From positions 124,001 to 188,000 of the forward strand of contig NZ_FNFE01000002.1 of NCBI RefSeq assembly GCF_900100335.1: 64,000 bases of DNA, written 5' to 3'. This document shows, piece by piece, positions 49,021 to 64,000 of this stretch. The notes under the pieces were generated by a model that did not search any database, was not told where the DNA came from, and saw only the letters and a list, made by a program, of their open reading frames with translations. Each line of letters begins with the position of its first letter. Position 1 is the stretch's first letter. The DNA is from Natronorubrum texcoconense (GTDB lineage: Archaea > Halobacteriota > Halobacteria > Halobacteriales > Natrialbaceae). The translations under genes were made by a program, and so were the position numbers.

Positions 49021-49890
49021 CTACGCGATCAGATCCTCGAGTCGATCGATCAGTTCCTCGTTGCCGACGTGAACCGGCGTTCGGTCGTGAAGATCGTCGG
49101 GATCGACGGCCAGCAGCGATCGCTCACCGTCCGACGAGCGACCGCCGGCGCGTTCGACGATGTAGCCGATGGGGTTGCCCTCGAACTGGAGGCGGAGTTT
49201 CCCCTCGGGACGGGACTCGAGGCCGGGGTAGCCGAAGATCCCGCCGTAGGTGAGCACCTGGTTGACGTCGCCGATCATCGCGCCGCCGTACCGAAGCTTG
49301 AGTTCCTGTTCGATCTCGCGAGCGTACTCCTGAAAGTCGTCGGGCCAATCGGGAACGCGCCCGCCGAAGCCGTAGACGACCGGCTCGTCGGGGAGCCGAA
49401 CGTCCCGCTGAACGACGGTTCGTTCGCCGCCGGTCAGTTCGTACTCCGTGACCGAGTCCTCGGTCGCGAGCACCATCGTCGTGATCGGGCCGTACAGGAT
49501 GTAGCCGGCGGCGACGAGCGTCTCGCCTCGAGCGGGGAGCGCGGCGTCGTAGACGCCGAAGATCGTCCCCATCGCATTGTTCGACTTGAGGTTCGAGGAG
49601 CCGTCCAGCGGATCGACGGCGACGGCGTATACGTCCGCCATCGCCGGATCGCCGCCGCAGTCTTCGACCTCGGCTCGCTCCTCGCTCGCGTACTGTCCGA
49701 CGCCGTCGATAGCGGCGAGTCGGTCGCCGAGCAGTTCGTCCGCCCAGACGTCGGCTTCGACCTGTGTCTCGCCGCTCGGATTCTCCTCGTCGACGGTGCC
49801 GCGACGGCCGATGAGCCCCTGTCTGATCTCGGTCGCCGAGCGGCTGATCGTCGCGATCACGCTCTCGACGACTGGATCGGACACCGTCAT
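49021..49890 (-). CDS. fbp: Class I fructose-1,6-bisphosphatase
   Basis: 289 aa. Metal/substrate motif [14 protein letters not shown] is at about residues 92-105, with the upstream acidic ligand in YASEERAEV, and the end has [20 protein letters not shown]. This irreversible step of gluconeogenesis turns fructose-1,6-bisphosphate into fructose-6-phosphate. It starts 1 nt after the aldolase stop, so the two form an operon. The end [12 protein letters not shown] is intact. Confidence 0.92.
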
Positions 49891-49891
49891 C

Positions 49892-50686
49892 CTATTCCGT
49901 AGCCTCGAGTGCGGCGTCGGCCGTCTCCTCCTCGTAGATGACTCGCTCGAGGGCGTCGAGGAGCTGGGTCGGGTCCTCGCGCTGCCAGACGTTACGGCCG
50001 ACGGCGAGACCCTTGCAGCCGGCGTTGACGGCGGCCTCGACGGTCGAGAGGAACTCGTAGTCGGAGGTCTTCGAGCCGCCGCTCATGACGACCTTCATAT
50101 CGCCGGCGGCCTTGCAGGCGTGTTCCATCGCCTCGGGGCTGCCGGGGTACTTGACCTTCGCGATGTCGGCGCCGATCTCGAGGGCGATTCGGGTCGCATA
50201 CGAGATCGTGCCGGGCTTGGTGTCGTTTTTCAGTCCCTGTCCGCGCGGATAGGACCACATGACCATCGGCAGGTCGTGCTCGCGGGCGCTCTCCTGGGCG
50301 TCGCGGAACTCCTCGTACATCTCGACCTCGTGGTTCGAGCCGCTGTAGACGGTGAAGCCGACGGCGTCGGCGCCGAGTTCGGCGGCGTAGTCGACCGAGC
50401 AGTTGACTGGCGAGTCCGGCTCGCCCATCCAGAGGTTCGAGGTCCCGTTGAGCTTCAGCAGGAGGTTGACGTCGTCCTCGTAGCTGGGGTAGTAGCCCTC
50501 GGCGACCCCCTTCTGGACGGCCATCGCGGTGACGGCGTCGTGCGTCGCCGTCTCGAACACCGTCGACGGGTCGAGCTTTTCCGGCACGTCCTCGAAGTCG
50601 ACTGGACCGTGCTCTAACCCGTGGTCCATCGCCAAAATCAGTGACTTGCCATCGCGGACGATCGGTGAATCGTCGATCGGAATCAT
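49892..50686 (-). CDS. Class I fructose-bisphosphate aldolase (archaeal type)
   Basis: 264 aa. Signatures are [20 protein letters not shown] near the N-terminus and the Schiff-base Lys in [10 protein letters not shown] (DhnA-type aldolase), then [20 protein letters not shown]. It joins dihydroxyacetone phosphate and glyceraldehyde-3-phosphate. It is the first gene of the fba-fbp pair, with a TATA box at 50710-50718. The intact Lys and the operon make the function secure; the direction is likely gluconeogenic. Confidence 0.92.
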
Positions 50687-53314: not shown

Positions 53315-54538
53315 CTACGTCGACGAGCTATCCGCTTCCGAATCGACGCTCACTCGGTCGTGAATATGTCCTTCGCGAGCGTTCAGATGCTGCGGCGTTC
53401 GATCGTTTGACACCGCCAGCACCTCCGCGACGATGCTGTGTGCGATCTGGTAGGGCGAACCCCCGCCGAGATCGAGGCCGATCGGCGTGTACAGCGACGA
53501 CAGCGCCGCCCCGTCGAACGTCGTCCCCTCGCTCTCGAAGGCCTCGGTCATCTCCTCGAACCGTTCCTGTGGCCCCATCAACCCGACGTACGGGACGGGC
53601 GAGTCGAGCAGCCGTTCGATCGTCAGCCGGTCGTCGACGAAGTTGTGCGTCATGACGACCGCGTAGGTGCGACCGTCGAGGTTGATCCCGTCGTCGATCG
53701 CTGCCGGCGACGTCGTCACCGTTTCGTCGGCGTCGGGGAACCGGTCCTCGAGGTCGACACTCCCCCGGAAGCTGACCACGGTGACCCGAAAGTCGTTCTT
53801 CGCGGCTAGCTCCGTCACTGGCCCGACGTCGTGACCGGAACCGAAGACGACCAGCTCCGTCGGGGCCGCGAGACCGTCGATAAACACCTCGAGTCGCTCC
53901 CCGCGAACCTCGATTTCGATGGTATCCGCTCGGCCACGCTCGGCGAGGTCGGTCGCTGGACCCGCGAGGTCGTCGGGCCACGCCGTCGCCGGCTCGCCGT
54001 CCGGCGTCGCGAGGACTCCCTCCTCGGGATGGTAGTACGCCCGATCGCCGTGAGCGAGGGACGCGTCTTCTTCACCGCTTCCGTCTCGCCCAGTCCTCTC
54101 GTCCCCTTCGTCCCCCTCATCATCGCCCTCGAGCACGGTGAGAACGGCCACGCTCCGGCCCTCGTCGAACGCCTCGACGGCCGGCCGATAGGCGTCGGTC
54201 AGCGGCTCGAGCAGGACGTCGATGATCCCGTTACAGCCGACGCCGAGCCCCCAGACATCGTCGTCGTCCTCCATCAGGTCGTACGTCACCAGCTCCGGCC
54301 GGCCGCGTTCGCGAACCGACTTCGCCGCGACGAGGAGTTCGTCCTCGAGGCAACCGGCCGTGATACTCCCGACGCCCTCGCCCGCTTCGTCGAGCAGCAT
54401 CTTCGCGCCCGGCCGGCGGTAGGCGTTCCCCTCGACGTCGACGATCGTCGCGAGGACGTCCGTTCCGTCCTCGCCGAGCCGTTCGTGAATGCGCTGTACC
54501 ACCTCGGTCTCCGGAACGCTCCAGTTGCTTCCTGTCAT
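53315..54538 (-). CDS. XdhC family molybdoenzyme maturation factor (coxF-like)
   Basis: 407 aa. The N-terminal XdhC/CoxI domain has ATIVDVEGNAYRRPGAKMLL and GSITAGCLEDELLVAAKSVR with its conserved Cys. The C-terminal Rossmann domain starts ELVVFGSGHDVGPVTELAAK. An acidic insert (GDDEGDEGDERTGRDGSGEE) sits between them. XdhC binds molybdenum cofactor and helps its sulfuration and insertion. As the last gene of the cox cluster (4-nt overlap with the one before), a CO dehydrogenase maturation role is likely. Confidence 0.85.
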   Translation of the reverse strand: MTGSNWSVPETEVVQRIHERLGEDGTDVLATIVDVEGNAYRRPGAKMLLDEAGEGVGSITAGCLEDELLVAAKSVRERGRPELVTYDLMEDDDDVWGLGVGCNGIIDVLLEPLTDAYRPAVEAFDEGRSVAVLTVLEGDDEGDEGDERTGRDGSGEEDASLAHGDRAYYHPEEGVLATPDGEPATAWPDDLAGPATDLAERGRADTIEIEVRGERLEVFIDGLAAPTELVVFGSGHDVGPVTELAAKNDFRVTVVSFRGSVDLEDRFPDADETVTTSPAAIDDGINLDGRTYAVVMTHNFVDDRLTIERLLDSPVPYVGLMGPQERFEEMTEAFESEGTTFDGAALSSLYTPIGLDLGGGSPYQIAHSIVAEVLAVSNDRTPQHLNAREGHIHDRVSVDSEADSSST

Positions 54539-55575
54539 TGGTTCGAATCGCTTGGGTCTGTGGTCTCGCTCCCGCCGGTCGTCTCGCTCCGTCGCTCGCT
54601 TCCGTCGGTCGTGTCGCTCGCTCCCTCACTTCGATTTATGCGTTCGTCCGGCGTCGCCGGTCTCCGTAGCCCGCGGTCCGGATCAGCGACGCCGTCGGCC
54701 ATCGTATACACCTTCCGTACGCCGGCGTCGTGCAAGTCAGTTCCGCACGCTCCACTCTGGACGGCTTCGCGAACCCGGTCCGGCGCGGCAACCTCGGCTC
54801 CCGCGACGACGTCGACGCCGGCCTCGAACATCGGTTCCGGGAGCCCCGACGCGGTCGCACCGATCAGGACGACCGTCGCGTCAGCCGGTGCGGCCTCGAG
54901 ATAGCGCTCGAGACCGCCGTAGACGAACACGGAGCCGGTGACGAACACGACGTCCGCGTCGGCCATCGCCGCGGTCGCTTCGGCCGGCCGGAACGTCGTG
55001 ACGCGCACGTCGTCTGGCGCCGAGACGGGGCCGACGTCCCCGCGTTCGATCACTCGAACGTCGACGTCCGAGAACTTCCGGAACGCGGGTTTGAAGGCGC
55101 CGACCGTGGCGATCACGTCCACGCTCGGATCTAGCAGCGCCATCGGATCACCGGTTCGCCAGTCGATGGACGGCGCCGACAGCGCGTTGATCGCGGCGAC
55201 GCCCAGCGCGATCCGGAGCGCGGTGTCCCCGTCCACCGTCGCGTCGATGCGGCCCGATTCATCCGCTTCAGAGCCGTCGTAATCCGATTCGCCCCCCAAA
55301 TCGTCGAACTCCAACGTCGCCCATCGGAGGAGCGTCTCGAGGTCCACGTCGTCGGTCGACACCGACTCGCCCGGCGGTCGGTGGGCGAGCCCGGCCGTCC
55401 GTGTTCCCTCGCCCGCAGCCGCGAGTTCGGGATCGGATCGATCCGCTGCGCGGACGCCGGCCAGTTCGACCAGCACCGCCGATTCGCCGATCGTCACGCA
55501 CTCGACCGTGACGCCATCCGGGATTCCGCGGCTGCGGAGGCGGTCGACGATGGCCGGTCGGATCGGGTCGATCAT
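54535..55575 (-). CDS. DUF364-like Rossmann protein in the cox cluster
   Basis: 346 aa. A Rossmann-like C-terminal half (VIATVGAFKPAFRKFSDVDV, then ADVVFVTGSVFVYGGLERYL, ATVVLIGATASGLPEPMFEA) fits DUF364, a family thought to chelate heavy metals. The N-terminal part resembles its alpha/beta lobe. The end is a Ser/Thr/Glu-rich low-complexity tail (TTDGSERRSETTGGSETTDP). It shares 4-nt overlaps with its coxE-like and XdhC neighbours. A role in metal or sulfur supply to the CO dehydrogenase is inference. Confidence 0.75.
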   Translation of the reverse strand: MIDPIRPAIVDRLRSRGIPDGVTVECVTIGESAVLVELAGVRAADRSDPELAAAGEGTRTAGLAHRPPGESVSTDDVDLETLLRWATLEFDDLGGESDYDGSEADESGRIDATVDGDTALRIALGVAAINALSAPSIDWRTGDPMALLDPSVDVIATVGAFKPAFRKFSDVDVRVIERGDVGPVSAPDDVRVTTFRPAEATAAMADADVVFVTGSVFVYGGLERYLEAAPADATVVLIGATASGLPEPMFEAGVDVVAGAEVAAPDRVREAVQSGACGTDLHDAGVRKVYTMADGVADPDRGLRRPATPDERINRSEGASDTTDGSERRSETTGGSETTDPSDSNQ

Positions 55576-57023
55576 CCGCTATCACCTCCGTTGTCGTCGC
55601 TCTCGGCGGCGGAGCGCCTGCGCCGGGGATCGTGCTCGAACCCGACCGGGCCGTCGATCCCGTAGCGCTCGAGCTGTCGCGCCGCCTCGTCGAGATCGGT
55701 CGGCGTCGCGAAGCCGAACAGTCCGTCGACGTAGGGGTAGACGGTCTCCATCCCACGCGAGCGCGGCTCGTACGCCGGCGACACCGCGAGCGGGTTGAGC
55801 CAGACGACCGCGTCGGCCCGGCCCGCGAGCCAGGTGACGCTCTCCTCGAGGATCTCCTGGTCGCCGACGTCGAGCCCGTCGCTAATAACGACGACGACCG
55901 TTCGTCGATCCACCGCGTAGGGGTGGCGCCGCCGGAGCGCGTCGAACGCCTCGCCGATCCGCGTCCCGCCGCCCCACTCGATTTCGGCGTCGCGCAGCGC
56001 CCCGGCGGGGTCGCCGTCCGCCCGCGCGAACTGCTCCGTCGCCTCGACGAGGTCGGTGTCGAACAAAAAGACGGACGACCGACGCGCGGTGGCCTGCAGT
56101 CGGTCCGCGACCGCGAGGAGCGTGTCGCGATCGATCGTATCGAGAACCGAGCCGCTGACGTCGATCAGCAGACAGCAGTGGAGTTCGCTCGGCACTCGTT
56201 CGCGCGTCGGAAGGTCTACCGCGGTGCCGCCGGTCCCCAGGCTGGCGCGGAGCGCTCGCCGGGCGTCGATCCGCTCGCCGGTGGCGGCGAGTCGCGTTCG
56301 GCGGCCGGGAATCGTCGACAGCGCGTCGAGAAACCGGTCCACCGCGGCGGTCTCGTCGGTGGTCAGCGGAGTCGGCGTCGCTTCGACGGGTTCGCGCCGC
56401 CCGACGGCGCTGTACAGCCGTGCATCGTCGCCGTCGTCGCCGTCGGACGACGGCCGTTCGCCGGTTGCGTGCCTGCGTCCGGTTGCGAGACGAAGGTCGA
56501 CGCTCTCGGGCCCGTCGTCCGACTCCGGCGGCGGCGGTTCCACCCCCGACGGCAGGTCCGCTCCCTCCAACGATGCTGCCTGCCGATTCGACTCGTCGGT
56601 ATCGTCGCCGTCTCGCGCAGGCGAGTCGTCGTGGGTCGAAATCCGGTCGATACCGGTCCGCAAGCGGTGCCAGAAGGTCGGAAACTCCGCATCGAAAACG
56701 TCGATATCGTCCGATTCGGTGAGCAGAGATGCCCGAAGCGCGTCGGCGGCTGGATCTCGGTCGGCGAACCCGACCACCGCGAGCGCTCTCGCACCCTCGA
56801 GCGCCCCGCTCGCCGGCACGCTGGCGCCCTCGCGCCGAAGCTGACCGACGAAGCGAACGAGCTCCGTCAGCACGTGTTTGCGCGCCGCCTCGAAATCCGG
56901 CGCGGTGTGGCGGCCCGATGGTCGGTCGAGACCGTCGCCGTCGGTCTCGATTTCGGACTGAACCTCAGGCTCGATCCCCTCGAACTCCCCCTCAGTATCG
57001 AACGGATTCCGACGTGGCGTCAT
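55572..57023 (-). CDS. coxE: VWA domain protein, CoxE-like
   Basis: 483 aa from MTPRRNPFDTEGEFEGIEPE. The C-terminal 200 residues carry a von Willebrand A domain with the MIDAS motif LLIDVSGSVLDT (DxSxS) and later WGGGTRIGEAFDALRRRHPY and VVVVISDGLDVGDQEILEES. The front half is the CoxE-type helical region with acidic linkers. CoxE works with CoxD to build the copper-molybdenum site of CO dehydrogenase. It overlaps the AAA ATPase and DUF364-like genes by 4 nt each. Confidence 0.87.
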   Translation of the reverse strand: MTPRRNPFDTEGEFEGIEPEVQSEIETDGDGLDRPSGRHTAPDFEAARKHVLTELVRFVGQLRREGASVPASGALEGARALAVVGFADRDPAADALRASLLTESDDIDVFDAEFPTFWHRLRTGIDRISTHDDSPARDGDDTDESNRQAASLEGADLPSGVEPPPPESDDGPESVDLRLATGRRHATGERPSSDGDDGDDARLYSAVGRREPVEATPTPLTTDETAAVDRFLDALSTIPGRRTRLAATGERIDARRALRASLGTGGTAVDLPTRERVPSELHCCLLIDVSGSVLDTIDRDTLLAVADRLQATARRSSVFLFDTDLVEATEQFARADGDPAGALRDAEIEWGGGTRIGEAFDALRRRHPYAVDRRTVVVVISDGLDVGDQEILEESVTWLAGRADAVVWLNPLAVSPAYEPRSRGMETVYPYVDGLFGFATPTDLDEAARQLERYGIDGPVGFEHDPRRRRSAAESDDNGGDSG

Positions 57024-58087
57024 TGGTCTGGCGCGTCGGTTCGGTCGCGAGCCGCGGCTGCGGCGTCTCGAAGCCGTTCCAGGAGCGAGCCGTCGACCCG
57101 TTTGACGTCCTCGACTTCCTTGAGCAGGCAGCCGATCGTGCGCTCGATCTCGTCCGCCGAGAGCGATCCGGTCCGGCCCTCGGCTCGCAGCGCGGCGACG
57201 GCTCGAGCCCAGTCGAGCGTCTCGGCGACGCCGGGGCGTTTGAGGAACGACTCCTCCCGCAGACGTTCGACGACGGCGCAGACTTCGGCGGCGATGGCGG
57301 CGTCGAGTTCCGGCACCTTGCGGGAGACGATTTCGTACTCCGTCTCGAACGACGGGGGCTCGACGTGCAGGTAGAGACACCGCCGTTTGAGCGCGTCGCT
57401 CAGCCCGCGGGTCCGGTTCGACGTGAGGACGACGATCGGCGGGTTCTCCGCGCTGACCGTGCCCAGCTCCGGTATCGACACCTGATAATCCGAGAGCAGT
57501 TCGAGCAGGAAGGCCTCGAACGCCTCGTCGGCGCGGTCGATTTCGTCGATCAACAGGACCGGCGACCGATCCTTCCCGGCGGTGAGCGCACGCAGGAGGG
57601 GACGCTCGAGGAGGAACTCGTCGTCGAACACGGAGCGCGGTCGCTCGGTGTTCGACCCGGAGTCGTCCGTCGTGCCCGGGGCGTTCTGAGCGTTCGAAAC
57701 ATCCGGCGCGTTCGAAGCATCCGGAGCGCCCGAATCGGTTGCTTCGCCCTCGGCCGCCACCGGAGTGCCGACGCGTCCCTCGTTCGACTGCACCGCGAGC
57801 AGCTGTTTCGTGTAGTTCCACTCGTAGAGCGCGTTTTCCGCGGTCAGGCCCTCGTAACACTGGAGCCGAATCAGCTCAGTTTCGAACCCCTCGGCGAGGA
57901 CTTTCCCCAGTTCGGTCTTTCCGCTGCCGGGCGGCCCTTCGACGAGGAGCGGCCGCCCCAGCTGTAGTGCGAGGTAGACCGTCGTGACGAGGCGGTCGTC
58001 GGCGACGTAGTTCAGCTCCTCGAACCGCTCGAGGAGCGCGGACTCCGAGATCGTCTCGAACGCGAGGGCCGGCGTCTCGTCGGTCAT
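57020..58087 (-). CDS. coxD: MoxR-type AAA+ ATPase, CoxD-like
   Basis: 355 aa. Walker A is LLVEGPPGSGKTELGKVLAE (GPPGSGKT) and Walker B LLIDEIDRADEAFEAFLLEL. Sensor and arginine residues are in VLTSNRTRGLSDALKRRCLY. CoxD is the chaperone-like ATPase that helps reconstitute the [CuSMoO2] site of CO dehydrogenase together with CoxE. Between the Walker motifs is an extra low-complexity stretch (SGAPDASNAPDVSNAQNAPG), which looks unusual. Translational coupling with both neighbours is clear. Confidence 0.9.
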   Translation of the reverse strand: MTDETPALAFETISESALLERFEELNYVADDRLVTTVYLALQLGRPLLVEGPPGSGKTELGKVLAEGFETELIRLQCYEGLTAENALYEWNYTKQLLAVQSNEGRVGTPVAAEGEATDSGAPDASNAPDVSNAQNAPGTTDDSGSNTERPRSVFDDEFLLERPLLRALTAGKDRSPVLLIDEIDRADEAFEAFLLELLSDYQVSIPELGTVSAENPPIVVLTSNRTRGLSDALKRRCLYLHVEPPSFETEYEIVSRKVPELDAAIAAEVCAVVERLREESFLKRPGVAETLDWARAVAALRAEGRTGSLSADEIERTIGCLLKEVEDVKRVDGSLLERLRDAAAAARDRTDAPDQ

Positions 58088-59289
58088 GGTGACATCAGTT
58101 CCCCGTCTTCGACCGTCTCGAGATAGTCGCCGGGATCGGCCCGGAAGCTGTCGGCGCAGCCGTGACAGCAGAAGTAGTAGGTCGTTCCCTCGTGCGTGAC
58201 GCTCGGCGCGTCGTCGGGATCGACGGTCATGTCGCAGACTGGATCGACTGCCGGCTCGTCGGTCACGTCGTTCGGTTCGTTCACGCTGTTCGAGTCGGTC
58301 GCATCGGTCGTCGCCGTTTCGGTCTCACTGACGCCACCTCCACAACAAGCGCCACTCGCTTGGTCGCCGGCGTCGGTCGCCGTCGCTGCGTCCTCGAGAC
58401 TCTCGCTCACACGCGAGGACGCCGTCACCGCGCCCGTATTAGCCCGCACGTCGATCAGTTCGGCGAGCACGCTCGCCGCGATCTCCGCGCCCGTTTTAGC
58501 CGAGATATCGACGCCCGCGGGGTTCGTGATCGCGTCTCGGACCGACTCGGAATCCCGATCGAGGAGTCCCGCGGCCCGTTCGACGACCGTCTCCGCGCGC
58601 GCATCACTCGCCACGAGGCCGATGTACGGCGCGTCCGCGAGGACGCCGGCGGCGACAGCGCGAGCGTCGTACTCGCCCATCGAAGCCGCGACGACGAGCG
58701 GGGCGGGGCCGACGGCTTCGGCGATCGACTCGGGCTCGAGCGTCGAGAGCACCGTAACGTCGTCCGGAACGGTTCCGCCGCCCCCATCGGGGTCGACGAC
58801 CGTCACGTCGATTGCGAGTTCGCTCGCTAATCTGACAAGCGAGTTCGCGACGGGCGAGCCGCCCACGACGAGCAGTGTCGTCGTCGGAACCACCGGCTCG
58901 ATGAACACCTCGAGGGTGCCCTCGCTCTGACACGTCATCGGAAACGCCTCGAGTCCGGGGCGATCGATCGCGGCGGGCTCCGGTGCGAGACCGATCAGCC
59001 GCGGCTCTCCCTCGGCGATGGCTGTGCGGGCCTCGCTTTCGACCCGCGACTGGGCGCAGGCCGCGCCGCCGACCCAACCGACGAGGTCGCCGTCGGTCGT
59101 GACGAGCGCCCGGTCGCCGACGTTGGCCGACACCGGCGCTTCGCGGCGGACGACGGTGGCCCGTGCGTAGGGTGTCCCGCGCTCGGCGAGCGCTCGCTCT
59201 TGCTGTGCGAGTTCGCCGTCGCTCACGGCGTCGGCTCGATCGCTGGTCGACTCGGCGTTCGTGGTCTCGTGTGGTGTGTCTTCGGTCAT
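58084..59289 (-). CDS. XdhC family protein fused to a C-terminal YHS metal-binding domain
   Basis: 401 aa. XdhC domain first (ATVVRREAPVSANVGDRALV; GWVGGAACAQSRVESEARTA), Rossmann domain next (TTTLLVVGGSPVANSLVRLA), then the linker with SGACCGGGVSETETATTDAT, and a YHS domain at about residues 350-397: DPVCDMTVDPDDAPSVTHEG and YYFCCHGCADSFRADPGDYL. YHS/TRASH domains bind metals such as copper. It stands between coxL and coxD. A copper-handling maturation factor is a good but unproven guess. Confidence 0.85.
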   Translation of the reverse strand: MTEDTPHETTNAESTSDRADAVSDGELAQQERALAERGTPYARATVVRREAPVSANVGDRALVTTDGDLVGWVGGAACAQSRVESEARTAIAEGEPRLIGLAPEPAAIDRPGLEAFPMTCQSEGTLEVFIEPVVPTTTLLVVGGSPVANSLVRLASELAIDVTVVDPDGGGGTVPDDVTVLSTLEPESIAEAVGPAPLVVAASMGEYDARAVAAGVLADAPYIGLVASDARAETVVERAAGLLDRDSESVRDAITNPAGVDISAKTGAEIAASVLAELIDVRANTGAVTASSRVSESLEDAATATDAGDQASGACCGGGVSETETATTDATDSNSVNEPNDVTDEPAVDPVCDMTVDPDDAPSVTHEGTTYYFCCHGCADSFRADPGDYLETVEDGELMSP

Positions 59290-59425: not shown

Positions 59426-61909
59426 TCAGTCGTCCGCCGCCTCGTCGCTCGACTGGACGTCGAACTCGAGGGCGACGTTGTCGGCCGGGTCCATGGCGAG
59501 TCCGGCCTCGTCGAGTTTCTCCCAGACGACGTCGGGCGTCATCGGCATCTCGACGTGGCTGATCCCGCCGTGGGCCATCGCGTCGACGACGGCGTTGACG
59601 ATGGCCGGTGGCGAGCCGACCGTCGGCGACTCGCCGACGCCCTTCGCCCCGATCGGGTGGTGGGGCGACGGCGTGACGGTGTGGCCGGTCTCGAACTCAG
59701 GAATCTCCATCGACGTGGGCAGCAGGTAGTTCATGAAGTCGCCGCCGGTGACGTTGCCGTTGTCGTCGAAGGTGACGTGCTCCATCATCGCCGTCCCAAT
59801 CCCCTGGGCGAGTCCGCCGTGGATCTGGCCCTCGATGATCATCGGGTTGATCCGGTTGCCGCAGTCGTCGACGGCGACGAACTTCTCGAACTCGACCTCG
59901 CCCGTCTCGCGGTCGATCTCGACGATCACGATGTAGGAGCCGAACGGATACGTCATCTCCGGCGGATCGTAGTAGTTGACCGCCTCGAGTCCCGGATCCT
60001 CGCCCGCGGGCTTGTTCATGTACGCGCCGGCGGCGATCTCGGTGATCGAGATCGACCGGTCCGGCGCGCCGGCGACGTGGAACTCGCCGCTCTCGCGGTC
60101 CCACGTGATGTCCGCCTCCGCGGCCTCGAGTTCGTTCGCCGCGATAGCTTTCGCCTTCTCGCGGACCTTCCGCGAGGCGACGGCCGCGGCGGCGCCGGCG
60201 ACGGGGGTGCTCCGAGAGCCGTACGTTCCCAGGCCGTAGGGGTCCGTATCCGTGTCCCCGTGCTCGACGGTGATGTCGTCGACGTCCATGCCGAGTTCCT
60301 CGGCGACGATCTGGGCGAATGTGGTCTCGTGACCCTGCCCCTGGGTCTGGACGCCAACCCGAACCGTCGCGTTGCCGGTCGGATGGACCCGAATCTCGGC
60401 GGAGTCGAACATCTCGACGCCCGCGATGTCGCAGGTCTTTCCGGGACCCGCACCGACGACTTCCGTAAAGGATGAGATGCCGATGCCGAGCAGTTTGTCG
60501 GCGTCCTCCTCGATTCGGCGCTGCTGTTCCTCGCGGTAGTCGTCGTAGTCGGCCATCTCGAGGGCGAGATCCAGGGCCTTCTCGTAGTCGCCCGAGTCGT
60601 AGTTCCACCCCGTCGGACTCTCGTAGGGGAACTGGTCGGGCTGGATGAAGTTCTTCCGCCGGATCTCGGCGGGGTCCATCTCGAGTTCGTCGGCCAGCAC
60701 CTTCACCATCCGCTCGATGAGGTAGACGGCCTCCGTGACGCGGAACGAACACCGATAGGCGACGCCGCCCGGCGCGGTGTTGGTGTAGGCCGCCGTCAGG
60801 GTGCCGTAGGCCGTGTCGACGTCGTACGATCCGGTGAAGATGTTGAAGAACCCGGCGGGGAACTTCGACGGCTGGGCCACGGCGTTGTACGCGCCGTGGT
60901 CGGCGAGCACGTCGGTCCTGACCGCCAGGATCTCGCCGTCTTCGGTCGCGGCGAGTTCGCCCTGCATGTCGTAGTCGCGGGCGAACCCGGTCGACTGGAT
61001 GTTCTCCGAGCGCTCCTCGACCCACTTCACCGGCTGCTCTAAGACGTACGACGCCGCCGCGGCGACGACGTAGCCGGGGTAGATCGGCACCTTGTTACCG
61101 AATCCGCCGCCCACGTCGGGGCTGACGATCCGAACCTTGTGTTCGGGGATCCCCGAGACCTGCGAGAACAGGGTCCGGTGGATGTGGGGCGCCTGCGAGG
61201 TCATGTGGACGGTTAGCTTGTCCTTGCCGGGATCGAAGTCGCCGACCGCCCCGCAGGTCTCGATCGGCGCGGGGTGGAGTCGCTGGTAGAGCATCTGCTC
61301 TTTGACGGTGACCGGCGCGTCGTCGAACACCCTGGCGGTCGCCTCCTCGTCGCCCGTCTCCCAGTCCAGACAGTGGTTGTCCTCCTGGCCCTCGATGTCG
61401 TCTCTGATCAGCGGCGCGTCGTCCTCGAGCGCCTTCTCCGCGTCGACGACCGGATCGAGCACGTCGTAGTCGACGACGACTTTCTCCGCGCCGTCTTTCG
61501 CCGTGTACCGGTCGGTCGCGATGACCGCGGCGACCTCCTGGGACTGGAACTTCACCTTGTCGTTGACCAGGACGTCCTGCGTGTCGTCCATCAGCGTCGG
61601 CATCGTCGCGAGGTCGTACTCGAGTAAGTCCTCCGCGGTCAGGACGGCGACGACGCCGTCGACGTCCAGCGCACGCGATTTGTCGATGTTCTCGATTCGG
61701 GCGTGGGCGTGCGGGCTGCGAACGATCTCGCAGTGGAGCATCCCCGGCTTCTTGATGTCGTCGACGTAGTTGCCGCGACCGGTGATGAAGCGCTGGTCCT
61801 CCTTCCGTTTGACCTCCTCGCCCATGCCGCCGCGACCGTGCCCGCAGTGTTTCTCGGGCTGTGGGCCGCCGTCTTCCGCTTCCGCGAACCGTTCGGAGTC
61901 GCTGCTCAT
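59426..61909 (-). CDS. coxL: Aerobic CO dehydrogenase large subunit (form I)
   Basis: 827 aa, full length. The active-site loop is AYRCSFR (residues 384-390) with C387 as the copper ligand, the form I signature that separates true CO dehydrogenases from form II relatives (AYRGAGR). A conserved Glu in GVGESPTVG is at 760. Other family blocks are [20 protein letters not shown] and [17 protein letters not shown]. It oxidises CO with water to CO2, passing electrons via CoxS and CoxM. The start overlaps the coxS stop by 4 nt. A 136-nt gap separates it from the XdhC-YHS gene. Confidence 0.94.
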
Positions 61910-62598
61910 CGCGAATCACCGCCGAAATCGCCACCGTGTTCGCGGTCCGTCGTCGAGCCGCCGTGCTTGCGGTCCGTCGTCGGCCCGCCACAGCAGTTCT
62001 CCGCGCCGCAGTCGAACTCGCCGTCCGGGATGTCGTAATCGACCGAGGCGGACGCCTCCGTCGAGCCGTCTCCGTCGACGGTAACGCCGCCGTCGGCGGC
62101 CGCGATCTCGCCTTCCTCGAGTTCCTCGGCGGCGTACTCGATCGAGCGAACGATGTTCTGGTAGCCGGTACACCGACAGAGGTTGCCGCTGATCGCCTCC
62201 CGGATCTCCGCTTCGCTCGGGTTCGGATTCTCGTCGAGCAGGGCCTTCCCGGACATGAGCATCCCCGGCGTGCAGTAGCCACACTGCAGGCCGTGTTCCT
62301 CGCGGAATCCCTCCTGTAGCGGATGTAACTCGCCGCGGGCCTCCGGGAGCTCTTCCATGCCCTCGACGGTCGCGAGTTCGCTCCCCGCGGCCTGCGTCGC
62401 GAACATGAGACAGGACTTGATCGGTTCGCCGTCTTTGAGGACGGTACAGGCCCCGCAGTTTCCGGTGTCGCAGCCGATGTGCGTGCCGGTCAGGTCGAGT
62501 TCCTCCCTGATCGCGTGGACGAGCAGCTGTCGGGGTTCGACCTCGATCGTGTGTTCGGTTCCGTTGACCGTCAGCGTAATCTCTCGTGTGTCTGTCAC
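61906..62598 (-). CDS. coxS: CO dehydrogenase small [2Fe-2S] subunit, with Cys/His-rich tail
   Basis: 230 aa. The first [2Fe-2S] cluster is bound by [20 protein letters not shown] then C (plant-ferredoxin type), and the second by [11 protein letters not shown] and NLCRCTGY. Most CoxS proteins are about 160-170 residues, and this one has about 60 extra: [20 protein letters not shown] followed by the tandem repeat [18 protein letters not shown]. That tail is unusual and may bind metal. It overlaps coxM and coxL by 4 nt. Confidence 0.92.
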
Positions 62599-63482
62599 TG
62601 TGATACCCTCCGTTTGACGACCCCGGCGCGTTCGGCGGCGTCGCCGAGCGCGCGCTGGGTGAGGACGTTCACCATTCGTTCCTTGTAGCCGGCGTCGCCG
62701 TGCTCGTCGGACTCGGGATTCGACTGCTCGGCCGCCAGCTCCCCGGCGCGTTTGAACAGGTCGCTGCCGGGACGTTCGCCCTCGAGGTGGTCCTCCGCAT
62801 CGGTCGCGCGGACGTTCGTGATGTCGACCGCGGTGAGACCGATCCCCGCCCGCTCGATCCGACCGTCCTCGTCGAAGACGAGTCGCGCGGCCGAGCCGAC
62901 CATCGCGTAGTCGCCGACTTTGCGCTTCAGTTTGTGGTAGGCGCTCCCCTCGCGCGGCTCCGGCGTCGGCACGCGAATCTCGGTGACGAGTTCGTTCTCG
63001 TCGAGGGTCGTGTCGTAGGGAAGGAGGAAGAAGTCCTTCGCCGGGATGACTCGCTCGCCGTCCGGCCCGTGGGCGACGACCTCACCCTCGTGGGCGAGCA
63101 GGACGCTGCCCCAGTCGCCCTTCGGATCCGCCTGGGCGACGCCGCCGACGACCGTTCCGCGATTGCGGATCTGCGGGTCCGCGACCAGCGGCGCCGCGTC
63201 GGCGAAGCTGCCGTAGTTCTCGTCGACCAATTCCGACTGTTCGACGTCGGCGTGGCGCGCGAGCGCGCCGATCGTGAGCCAGCCGTCTTCCTCCTCGAGG
63301 TAGTCGAGGCTCTCGATGCGGTTGATGTCGATAACCGTCTCCGGAACCGCGAGTCGGAACCGGAGCATCGGGACCATGCTCTGACCGCCCGAGAGGATCG
63401 CCCGGTCGTCTAAGCTCTCGAGCAGGCTTACGGCTTCCTCGACCGTCTGAGGCTCGTGCTGTTCGAACTGCGCCGGCTTCAT
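62595..63482 (-). CDS. coxM: CO dehydrogenase medium FAD subunit
   Basis: 295 aa from [20 protein letters not shown]. The FAD-binding blocks are [20 protein letters not shown] and the loop [20 protein letters not shown]. The end ([20 protein letters not shown]) is the CO_deh_flav_C domain. Electrons go from the iron-sulfur clusters of CoxS to FAD and then to the quinone or another acceptor. The start at 63482 overlaps the coxG stop by 4 nt. The upstream extension to 63653 is a shadow. Confidence 0.92.
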
Positions 63483-64000
63483 AACATTCCGCGGATCCGG
63501 TCTGTGATACCCGAATCCGTCTCCTCGTCGACGTCGCTCATCTGCCGTTCGATGTCGCTGAAGAAGTTGCCGACGATCTTGTTGGCGACGGGCTCGATCA
63601 CGCGCGAGCCGAGCTGGGCGATCCGGCCCGAGATGTCGGCCTCGGTCCACCACTCGATCCGCGAGCCCTCGCCCTCCTCGAGCGGGTGGATCTGCATCCC
63701 CGAGTCCATGCTGAAACTGCTCCCGCTCGCGGTTCCGCTCCCGGTGGCGGTCATGATGAAGTCCTCCTCGTCGCGCTCCTGGATCGTCACGGACGTCTCG
63801 AACCGCGGTTTGACGCTCCCGACGCCGACCTGCATCAACGCGGCGTACTCCCGGCCCTCGACGAACGCGCGTTCGGCGACGTCCTCCGGGTCGGCCTCGG
63901 GTAGCGTCTCGAGGTCCTCGTCGGGTTCGTAGTCGTCGAAGCTGAAGTCGTCGTCCATCGGGGTGATGTACTTACAGCCCTTCAGCGAGTTCCGGACCGC
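63479..64000 (-). CDS. coxG: CoxG family SRPBCC protein (5' end beyond the window)
   Basis: The frame stays open upstream of the Met at 63958 up to the last base. The extra 14 codons read AVRNSLKGCKYITP, which fits the conserved start of CoxG ('SLPGC...'), so the real start is outside the window. The visible 173 residues include ERAFVEGREYAALMQVGVGS, VKPRFETSVTIQERDEEDFI and WWTEADISGRIAQLGSRVIE. CoxG proteins are SRPBCC-fold and help anchor CO dehydrogenase to the membrane. It overlaps coxM by 4 nt. Confidence 0.88.
   Translation of the reverse strand, partial: AVRNSLKGCKYITPMDDDFSFDDYEPDEDLETLPEADPEDVAERAFVEGREYAALMQVGVGSVKPRFETSVTIQERDEEDFIMTATGSGTASGSSFSMDSGMQIHPLEEGEGSRIEWWTEADISGRIAQLGSRVIEPVANKIVGNFFSDIERQMSDVDEETDSGITDRIRGML

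Follow-up and report, generated by a model that had tools for sequence, protein, structure and literature searches.

The stretch analysed here, 64,000 nucleotides of Natronorubrum texcoconense (NZ_FNFE01000002.1, positions 124,001 to 188,000; hereafter the window), carries a cox gene cluster transcribed from the minus strand in the order coxG, coxM, coxS, coxL, XdhC-YHS, CoxD, CoxE, DUF364 and a second XdhC (Table 1). The five maturation genes (53315-59289) were linked by four 4-base ATGA overlaps, and a 136-bp gap separated coxL from the XdhC-YHS gene (coxF). CoxL belonged to form I of the carbon monoxide dehydrogenases (CODH), as it possessed the AYRCSFR loop and scored 1225.9 bits against TIGR02416 (cut-off 991.15). 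CoxD and CoxE formed an adjacent pair of a MoxR-type AAA ATPase and a VWA_CoxE protein, and the NCBIfam MadB/MadC models scored below cut-off. Judged from sequence, the five maturation genes form one half of a form I CODH operon of haloarchaeal type, whose enzyme is predicted to hold a Cu-S-Mo centre. The initial annotation had proposed a translationally coupled copper and sulfur handling module at this place; its coordinates, gene order and Pfam identities were confirmed, the second XdhC gene lying just outside the range given, and both the coupling (an ATGA overlap at all four junctions) and the assignment to form I CODH maturation were borne out. The operon type, the CoxD, CoxE and CoxF families and the role of CoxF in copper insertion are already known.

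Table 1. Features of the cox cluster in the window, with the evidence for each assignment.
Feature	Position	Strand	Evidence
CoxF orthologue, XdhC_CoxI + XdhC_C + disordered linker (predicted) + C-terminal YHS, 401 amino acids	58084..59289	-	Pfam, tree, coxL adjacency, AlphaFold2 model
YHS domain, predicted ligand pattern D349-x2-C352-x21-C374-x3-C378	58117..58248	-	Pfam and alignment
CoxF signature C120-x-S-x-G	58918..58932	-	Alignment
ACCGGG motif, XdhC-YHS linker	58333..58350	-	2/18 haloarchaeal CoxF
CoxD, MoxR-type AAA+ ATPase	57020..58087	-	AAA_5 2e-13
CoxE, VWA protein, start ATG at 57023	55572..57023	-	VWA_CoxE 140.5 bits, 7e-41
DUF364 (PF04016) protein	54535..55575	-	Pfam
Second XdhC-family protein, CGG-type motif	53315..54538	-	Pfam; outside CoxF group in tree
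CoxL, form I (AYRCSFR)	59426..61909	-	Loop motif and TIGR02416
CoxS with C-terminal extension	61906..62598	-	Pfam
CoxS tail motif C-G-x-E-[ND]-C-C-G-G	61985..62010	-	One match in source genome
CoxM	62595..63482	-	Pfam
CoxG, N-terminus past window end (about coordinate 64084)	63479..64000	-	Pfam

The XdhC-YHS protein is, by sequence criteria, an orthologue of CoxF, as it combined the XdhC_CoxI and XdhC_C domains, the CxSxG signature, a grouping with the CoxF of Oligotropha (Afipia) carboxidovorans and adjacency to a form I coxL. A tree built from 154 XdhC-family sequences of fetched cox loci placed it inside a group of 105 that included O. carboxidovorans CoxF (root split 0.98; base of the CoxF group only 0.30), while the second XdhC of the window lay outside this group, together with CoxI and other XdhC proteins. 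The alignment showed C-x-S-x-G in the CoxF group at the position where other XdhC proteins mostly have CGG. The fusion to a YHS domain was also confirmed (PF04945, 43.4 bits against a cut-off of 30.3), and this was the sole YHS match in the source genome.

Among the 105 CoxF sequences, 86 had the YHS domain, while the 49 other XdhC sequences had no case of it (Fisher 7e-25), in a sample that consists of the best-scoring part of the scan matches plus plasmids, so that percentages are not population frequencies. According to the names in the sequence records, the carriers belonged to Actinomycetota, Chloroflexota, Bacteroidota, Acidobacteriota, Gemmatimonadota, Deinococcota, Bacillota, Myxococcota, Armatimonadota, some Burkholderiales and haloarchaea, and the idea that the fusion is a haloarchaeal peculiarity was rejected on this spread over many bacterial phyla. 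All eight alphaproteobacterial CoxF (O. carboxidovorans and seven others) were devoid of YHS and formed one clade (support 0.999). Under parsimony, carrying the domain is the ancestral state of the CoxF group, and 10 changes are needed. Of the 19 CoxF that lack YHS, three are truncated by a contig end or frameshift (L067, L069, L045); L041 and L060 come from one and the same genome.

Co-occurrence was counted across 361 haloarchaeal genomes, a survey overlapping an earlier sample of 195 in which 15 CoxL matches reached ≥76% identity and all others stayed at ≤50%. Form I coxL was found in 37 of the 361 genomes; CoxF occurred in all 37 and in none of the 324 others (Fisher 2e-51), located 13-696 bp from coxL. 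YHS was seen in 35 of the 37 haloarchaeal CoxF, one having lost it (G036) and one being not resolved (G575). DUF364 was found in 36 of the 37 form I genomes and in 8 of the 324 others (Fisher 1e-40), so that the association anticipated by the initial annotation held for both genes.

Concerning the metal site, the predicted ligands D349, C352, C374 and C378 match the TRASH-type set of one Asp and three Cys, by analogy with a characterised YHS domain (PMC4626032). The full pattern was kept in 83 of the 86 CoxF-YHS proteins and broken in three, in line with the predicted metal-binding character ascribed to the domain at the outset. In a 61-row alignment, C378 and P350 were invariant, C352 and C374 were each present in 59 rows, and D349 was present in 54, with Asn in the remaining 7; C120 of the XdhC part was invariant (61/61). 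The AlphaFold model of CoxF-YHS (predicted local distance difference test, pLDDT, 83.4) showed a confident XdhC domain, matching 2we7 (Foldseek E 3e-15), and a confident small C-terminal domain, separated by a low-confidence linker that is presumably disordered. In two haloarchaea (L036 and L043) this linker was His-rich (HDHDDHSGHDH..., HEHDHRDHGG).

The best reading of these data, by analogy, is that the YHS domain is the predicted copper-loading site of CoxF, given that coxF mutants lack copper insertion and that a copper-specific response is known from another YHS domain. Mutant phenotypes are known from earlier work in O. carboxidovorans for coxD, coxE and coxF; those in coxE and coxF produce CODH without copper and partly sulfurated (PMC4240915). 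The adenylyl cyclase of Mycobacterium phlei is activated specifically by Cu through its YHS domain, with D, C, C and C as proposed ligands (PMC4626032). The four ATGA overlaps, the co-occurrence counts and the MoeA and MobA-like nucleotidyltransferase genes just upstream also speak for this reading. In the proposed mechanism, the YHS domain would bind cytosolic copper through its Asp and three Cys, and the flexible linker would let it reach an apo-CODH docked on the XdhC domain and present Cu(I) to the sulfurated Mo site there, while CoxD (AAA+) and CoxE (VWA) would power the sulfuration step and the opening of the folded apoenzyme. DUF364 would be a haloarchaeal accessory of the operon, perhaps in pterin/molybdenum-cofactor or metal handling, outside the universal core chemistry. 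We infer by analogy that the domain holds copper rather than zinc and hands it over to CODH, and assign the copper-delivery reading as a whole (CoxF-YHS loading the Cu-S-Mo site, CoxD and CoxE opening the apoenzyme, DUF364 as accessory) a probability of roughly 0.6.

Several observations weigh against it. YHS was missing from the CoxF of O. carboxidovorans, seven other alphaproteobacteria, several mycobacteria and one haloarchaeon (G036), and is thus no strict requirement. Metals other than copper can also be bound by TRASH/YHS domains, such as Cd in ribosomal L24e, or none, as in a toluene hydroxylase crystal (PMC4626032). Ordinary XdhC proteins also have a Cys at the C120 position, the gene order varies (CoxD and CoxE do not stand between CoxF and DUF364 in G146 (L044) and G438), and the Fisher values ignore kinship, a problem made smaller but not removed by presence and absence varying together within several genera. 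The need of CoxF for copper insertion has been shown in O. carboxidovorans only (PMC4240915). There, its copper site was inferred from the short motif MCPSHGTM of the alphaproteobacterial protein (Pelzmann et al. 2014; PMC4240915); across the compared CoxF, the Cys of this motif was invariant and the Ser and Gly nearly so, while the His was not conserved, and since the Cys is common to ordinary XdhC, the motif alone is weak evidence for copper.

The loss of YHS in lineages that keep coxL, together with the three broken ligand sets, speaks for a rival reading in which YHS would sense copper (or zinc) or form a structural zinc knuckle, and would regulate or stabilise CoxF without delivering copper; the characterised YHS domain is indeed the sensor of an adenylyl cyclase. 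However, the exclusivity of YHS to CoxF among XdhC proteins and the copper-insertion phenotype of coxF mutants both favour delivery, and we regard the sensor or structural role as unlikely. An extension of the copper-delivery reading, in which most form I CO oxidisers would use CoxF-YHS as a cytosolic metallochaperone dedicated to bringing copper to the Cu-S-Mo site, lost in the alphaproteobacteria behind the current model, and haloarchaea would have added DUF364 and a Cys-rich CoxS tail for metal or cofactor hand-over, is put forward tentatively and seems rather improbable as a whole.

The DUF364 protein scored 74.9 bits against PF04016 (cut-off 23), which makes it a member of the family, where the initial annotation had called it DUF364-like. 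A DUF4213 enolase-like N-terminal domain scored 14.1 bits, below the cut-off of 23.5, and an AlphaFold model built from 3 sequences (pLDDT 37.7) was too poor for a fold search. Haloarchaeal DUF364 proteins shared the motifs T-V-G-L-F-x-P, R-V-I-E-R and F-V-T-G-S, as well as C-G-x-x-L-H except in one genus whose copies were not cox-linked. The gene was adjacent to the cox cluster in 35 of 36 genomes, the exception (G548) having both genes at contig ends. In bacteria, a profile search found DUF364 in 1 of 47 genomes with form I coxL (Kribbella; a genome-wide match, not placed relative to cox), and the family was not detected in the sampled bacterial cox loci. DUF364 was therefore rejected as a universal factor of the Cu-S-Mo site, for the sampled bacteria, and is better described as a haloarchaeal add-on: its proposed role as an unrecognised maturation factor is supported only in the form of a putative haloarchaea-specific accessory (36/37), with one haloarchaeon possessing form I coxL without it, and falls for the sampled bacteria.

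A putative role of DUF364 in molybdenum-cofactor or metal handling fits best. It may act solely on the molybdopterin/Mo side, in pterin or molybdate handling or by aiding the second XdhC, with no role in copper, a reading that is compatible with copper delivery by CoxF-YHS and to which we give somewhat less than even odds. The DUF364 fold points to a pterin- or flavin-like ligand and its published gene contexts are Mo/W/V/Fe transport (PMC2954201). In G484 (L153, 1643-8087), the nucleotidyltransferase, MoeA, CoxD, CoxE, DUF364 and second XdhC genes were kept while coxGMSL and coxF were gone; in G566 (L154, 5231-7557), whose genome has no form I coxL, DUF364 and the second XdhC formed a lone overlapping pair; and G113 lacked DUF364, with no second XdhC in its cox cluster. 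These three genomes suggested a strict partnership of DUF364 with the second XdhC, but DUF364 stood near coxF without an adjacent second XdhC in G146, G438 and G562, which weakens both that candidate, set aside in its strict form, and the Mo-side reading. In G146 (L044) and G438, DUF364 directly followed CoxF, with no space for CoxD or CoxE there. In a genus whose members lack form I coxL, copies lay near a siroheme decarboxylase-like (NirDL-type) gene (L049, L156); another copy lay near a KaiC-like ATPase gene (L050).

As the initial annotation had also suggested a copper relay through CCGG motifs shared by CoxF and CoxS, the distribution of these motifs was inspected. Both ENCCGG in CoxS and ACCGGG in CoxF were present in the window, and CCGG was more frequent than expected by chance: it was enriched in XdhC-family open reading frames (ORFs), and the other long ORFs of the loci, about 900,000 residues in all, yielded 9 occurrences, always in a CoxS tail. 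Most haloarchaeal form I CoxS carried C-G-x-E-[ND]-C-C-G-G or a motif close to it, within an otherwise variable tail, and its exact degenerate DNA pattern gave one match each in 9 of 15 genomes, always just upstream of coxL (controls 0). Conservation in haloarchaeal CoxS and uniqueness in the genome speak for a relay, as do the CCGG found in the CoxF of one acidobacterium and the SCCGG ending two Burkholderiales CoxF without YHS (L125 14498-15514; L130 6244-7410, the latter with the motif twice). On the other side, CCGG was present in only 2 of 18 haloarchaeal CoxF, as ACCGGG in the window and in Natronorubrum bangense; a CC pair was found in 0 of 90 bacterial CoxS tails; and G002 and G146 had lost the CoxS motif. 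A wider search of Burkholderiales for CCGG-tailed CoxF recovered the tail in the starting genome only. The motif is thus enriched, though not consistently common to CoxF and CoxS, being conserved in haloarchaeal CoxS but not in CoxF; the relay fails as stated, and we consider it highly unlikely.

Compared with the pHCG3 cox cluster of O. carboxidovorans, the window shares the families of CoxM, CoxS, CoxL, CoxD, CoxE, CoxF and CoxG, including the CoxF required there for copper insertion (PMC4240915), but the gene order differs (L-D-E-F-G versus G-M-S-L-F-D-E here), and on pHCG3 CoxF is 280 amino acids long without YHS, the cluster has no DUF364 and the CoxS tail has no Cys motif. The cox cluster on a plasmid of N. 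bangense (NZ_CP031306) shares the order of the window, including XdhC-YHS, DUF364, the second XdhC and the upstream MoeA and nucleotidyltransferase genes; it differs in being plasmid-borne and annotated generically, and its CoxL is 94% identical while its CoxF is only about 60% identical. The YHS domain has the same D-x2-C ... C-x3-C set as that of the M. phlei cyclase, which shows a Cu-specific response (PMC4626032), although there it belongs to a cyclase sensor and here to a molybdoenzyme maturase. The XdhC of Mycobacterium smegmatis (2we7/2we8) has the same XdhC fold, with CGG instead of CxSxG and no YHS. The structurally solved DUF364 proteins (3npg; Dhaf4260, 3l5o) share the PF04016 Rossmann-like domain, 3npg being matched at E 1.9e-12 by hidden Markov model, whereas their published contexts are metal transport and not cox, and in the protein of the window the DUF4213-like N-terminal part scores under the Pfam threshold.

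The route of copper to the Cu-S-Mo centre is an open step in CODH maturation, and the missing maturation factors were left as a challenge by Pelzmann et al. 2014 (PMC4240915). In the open-licence PubMed Central literature, with subscription journals and preprints outside the search, no paper paired YHS with XdhC or CODH; both the wide occurrence of the CoxF-YHS fusion and its lack in the model organism therefore appear undescribed there. A conserved, predicted metal-binding domain that is joined to CoxF across most of the other sampled lineages is a specific candidate, with defined ligand residues for mutagenesis, and makes copper delivery directly testable. Likewise, the tight linkage of DUF364 means that this family of unknown function can be studied in a defined genetic context.

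Beyond the window end and just upstream of the cox operon, genes for MoeA and a MobA-like nucleotidyltransferase were found in divergent orientation. Two more CoxL-like genes, with 41-47% identity to the form I CoxL, are located elsewhere in the source genome (G000:C2:9215-11551 and G000:C6:341439-343766). A few kb from the cox cluster, at 49021-50686 of the window, adjoining genes for a fructose-bisphosphatase and a class I fructose-bisphosphate aldolase were identified by eye.

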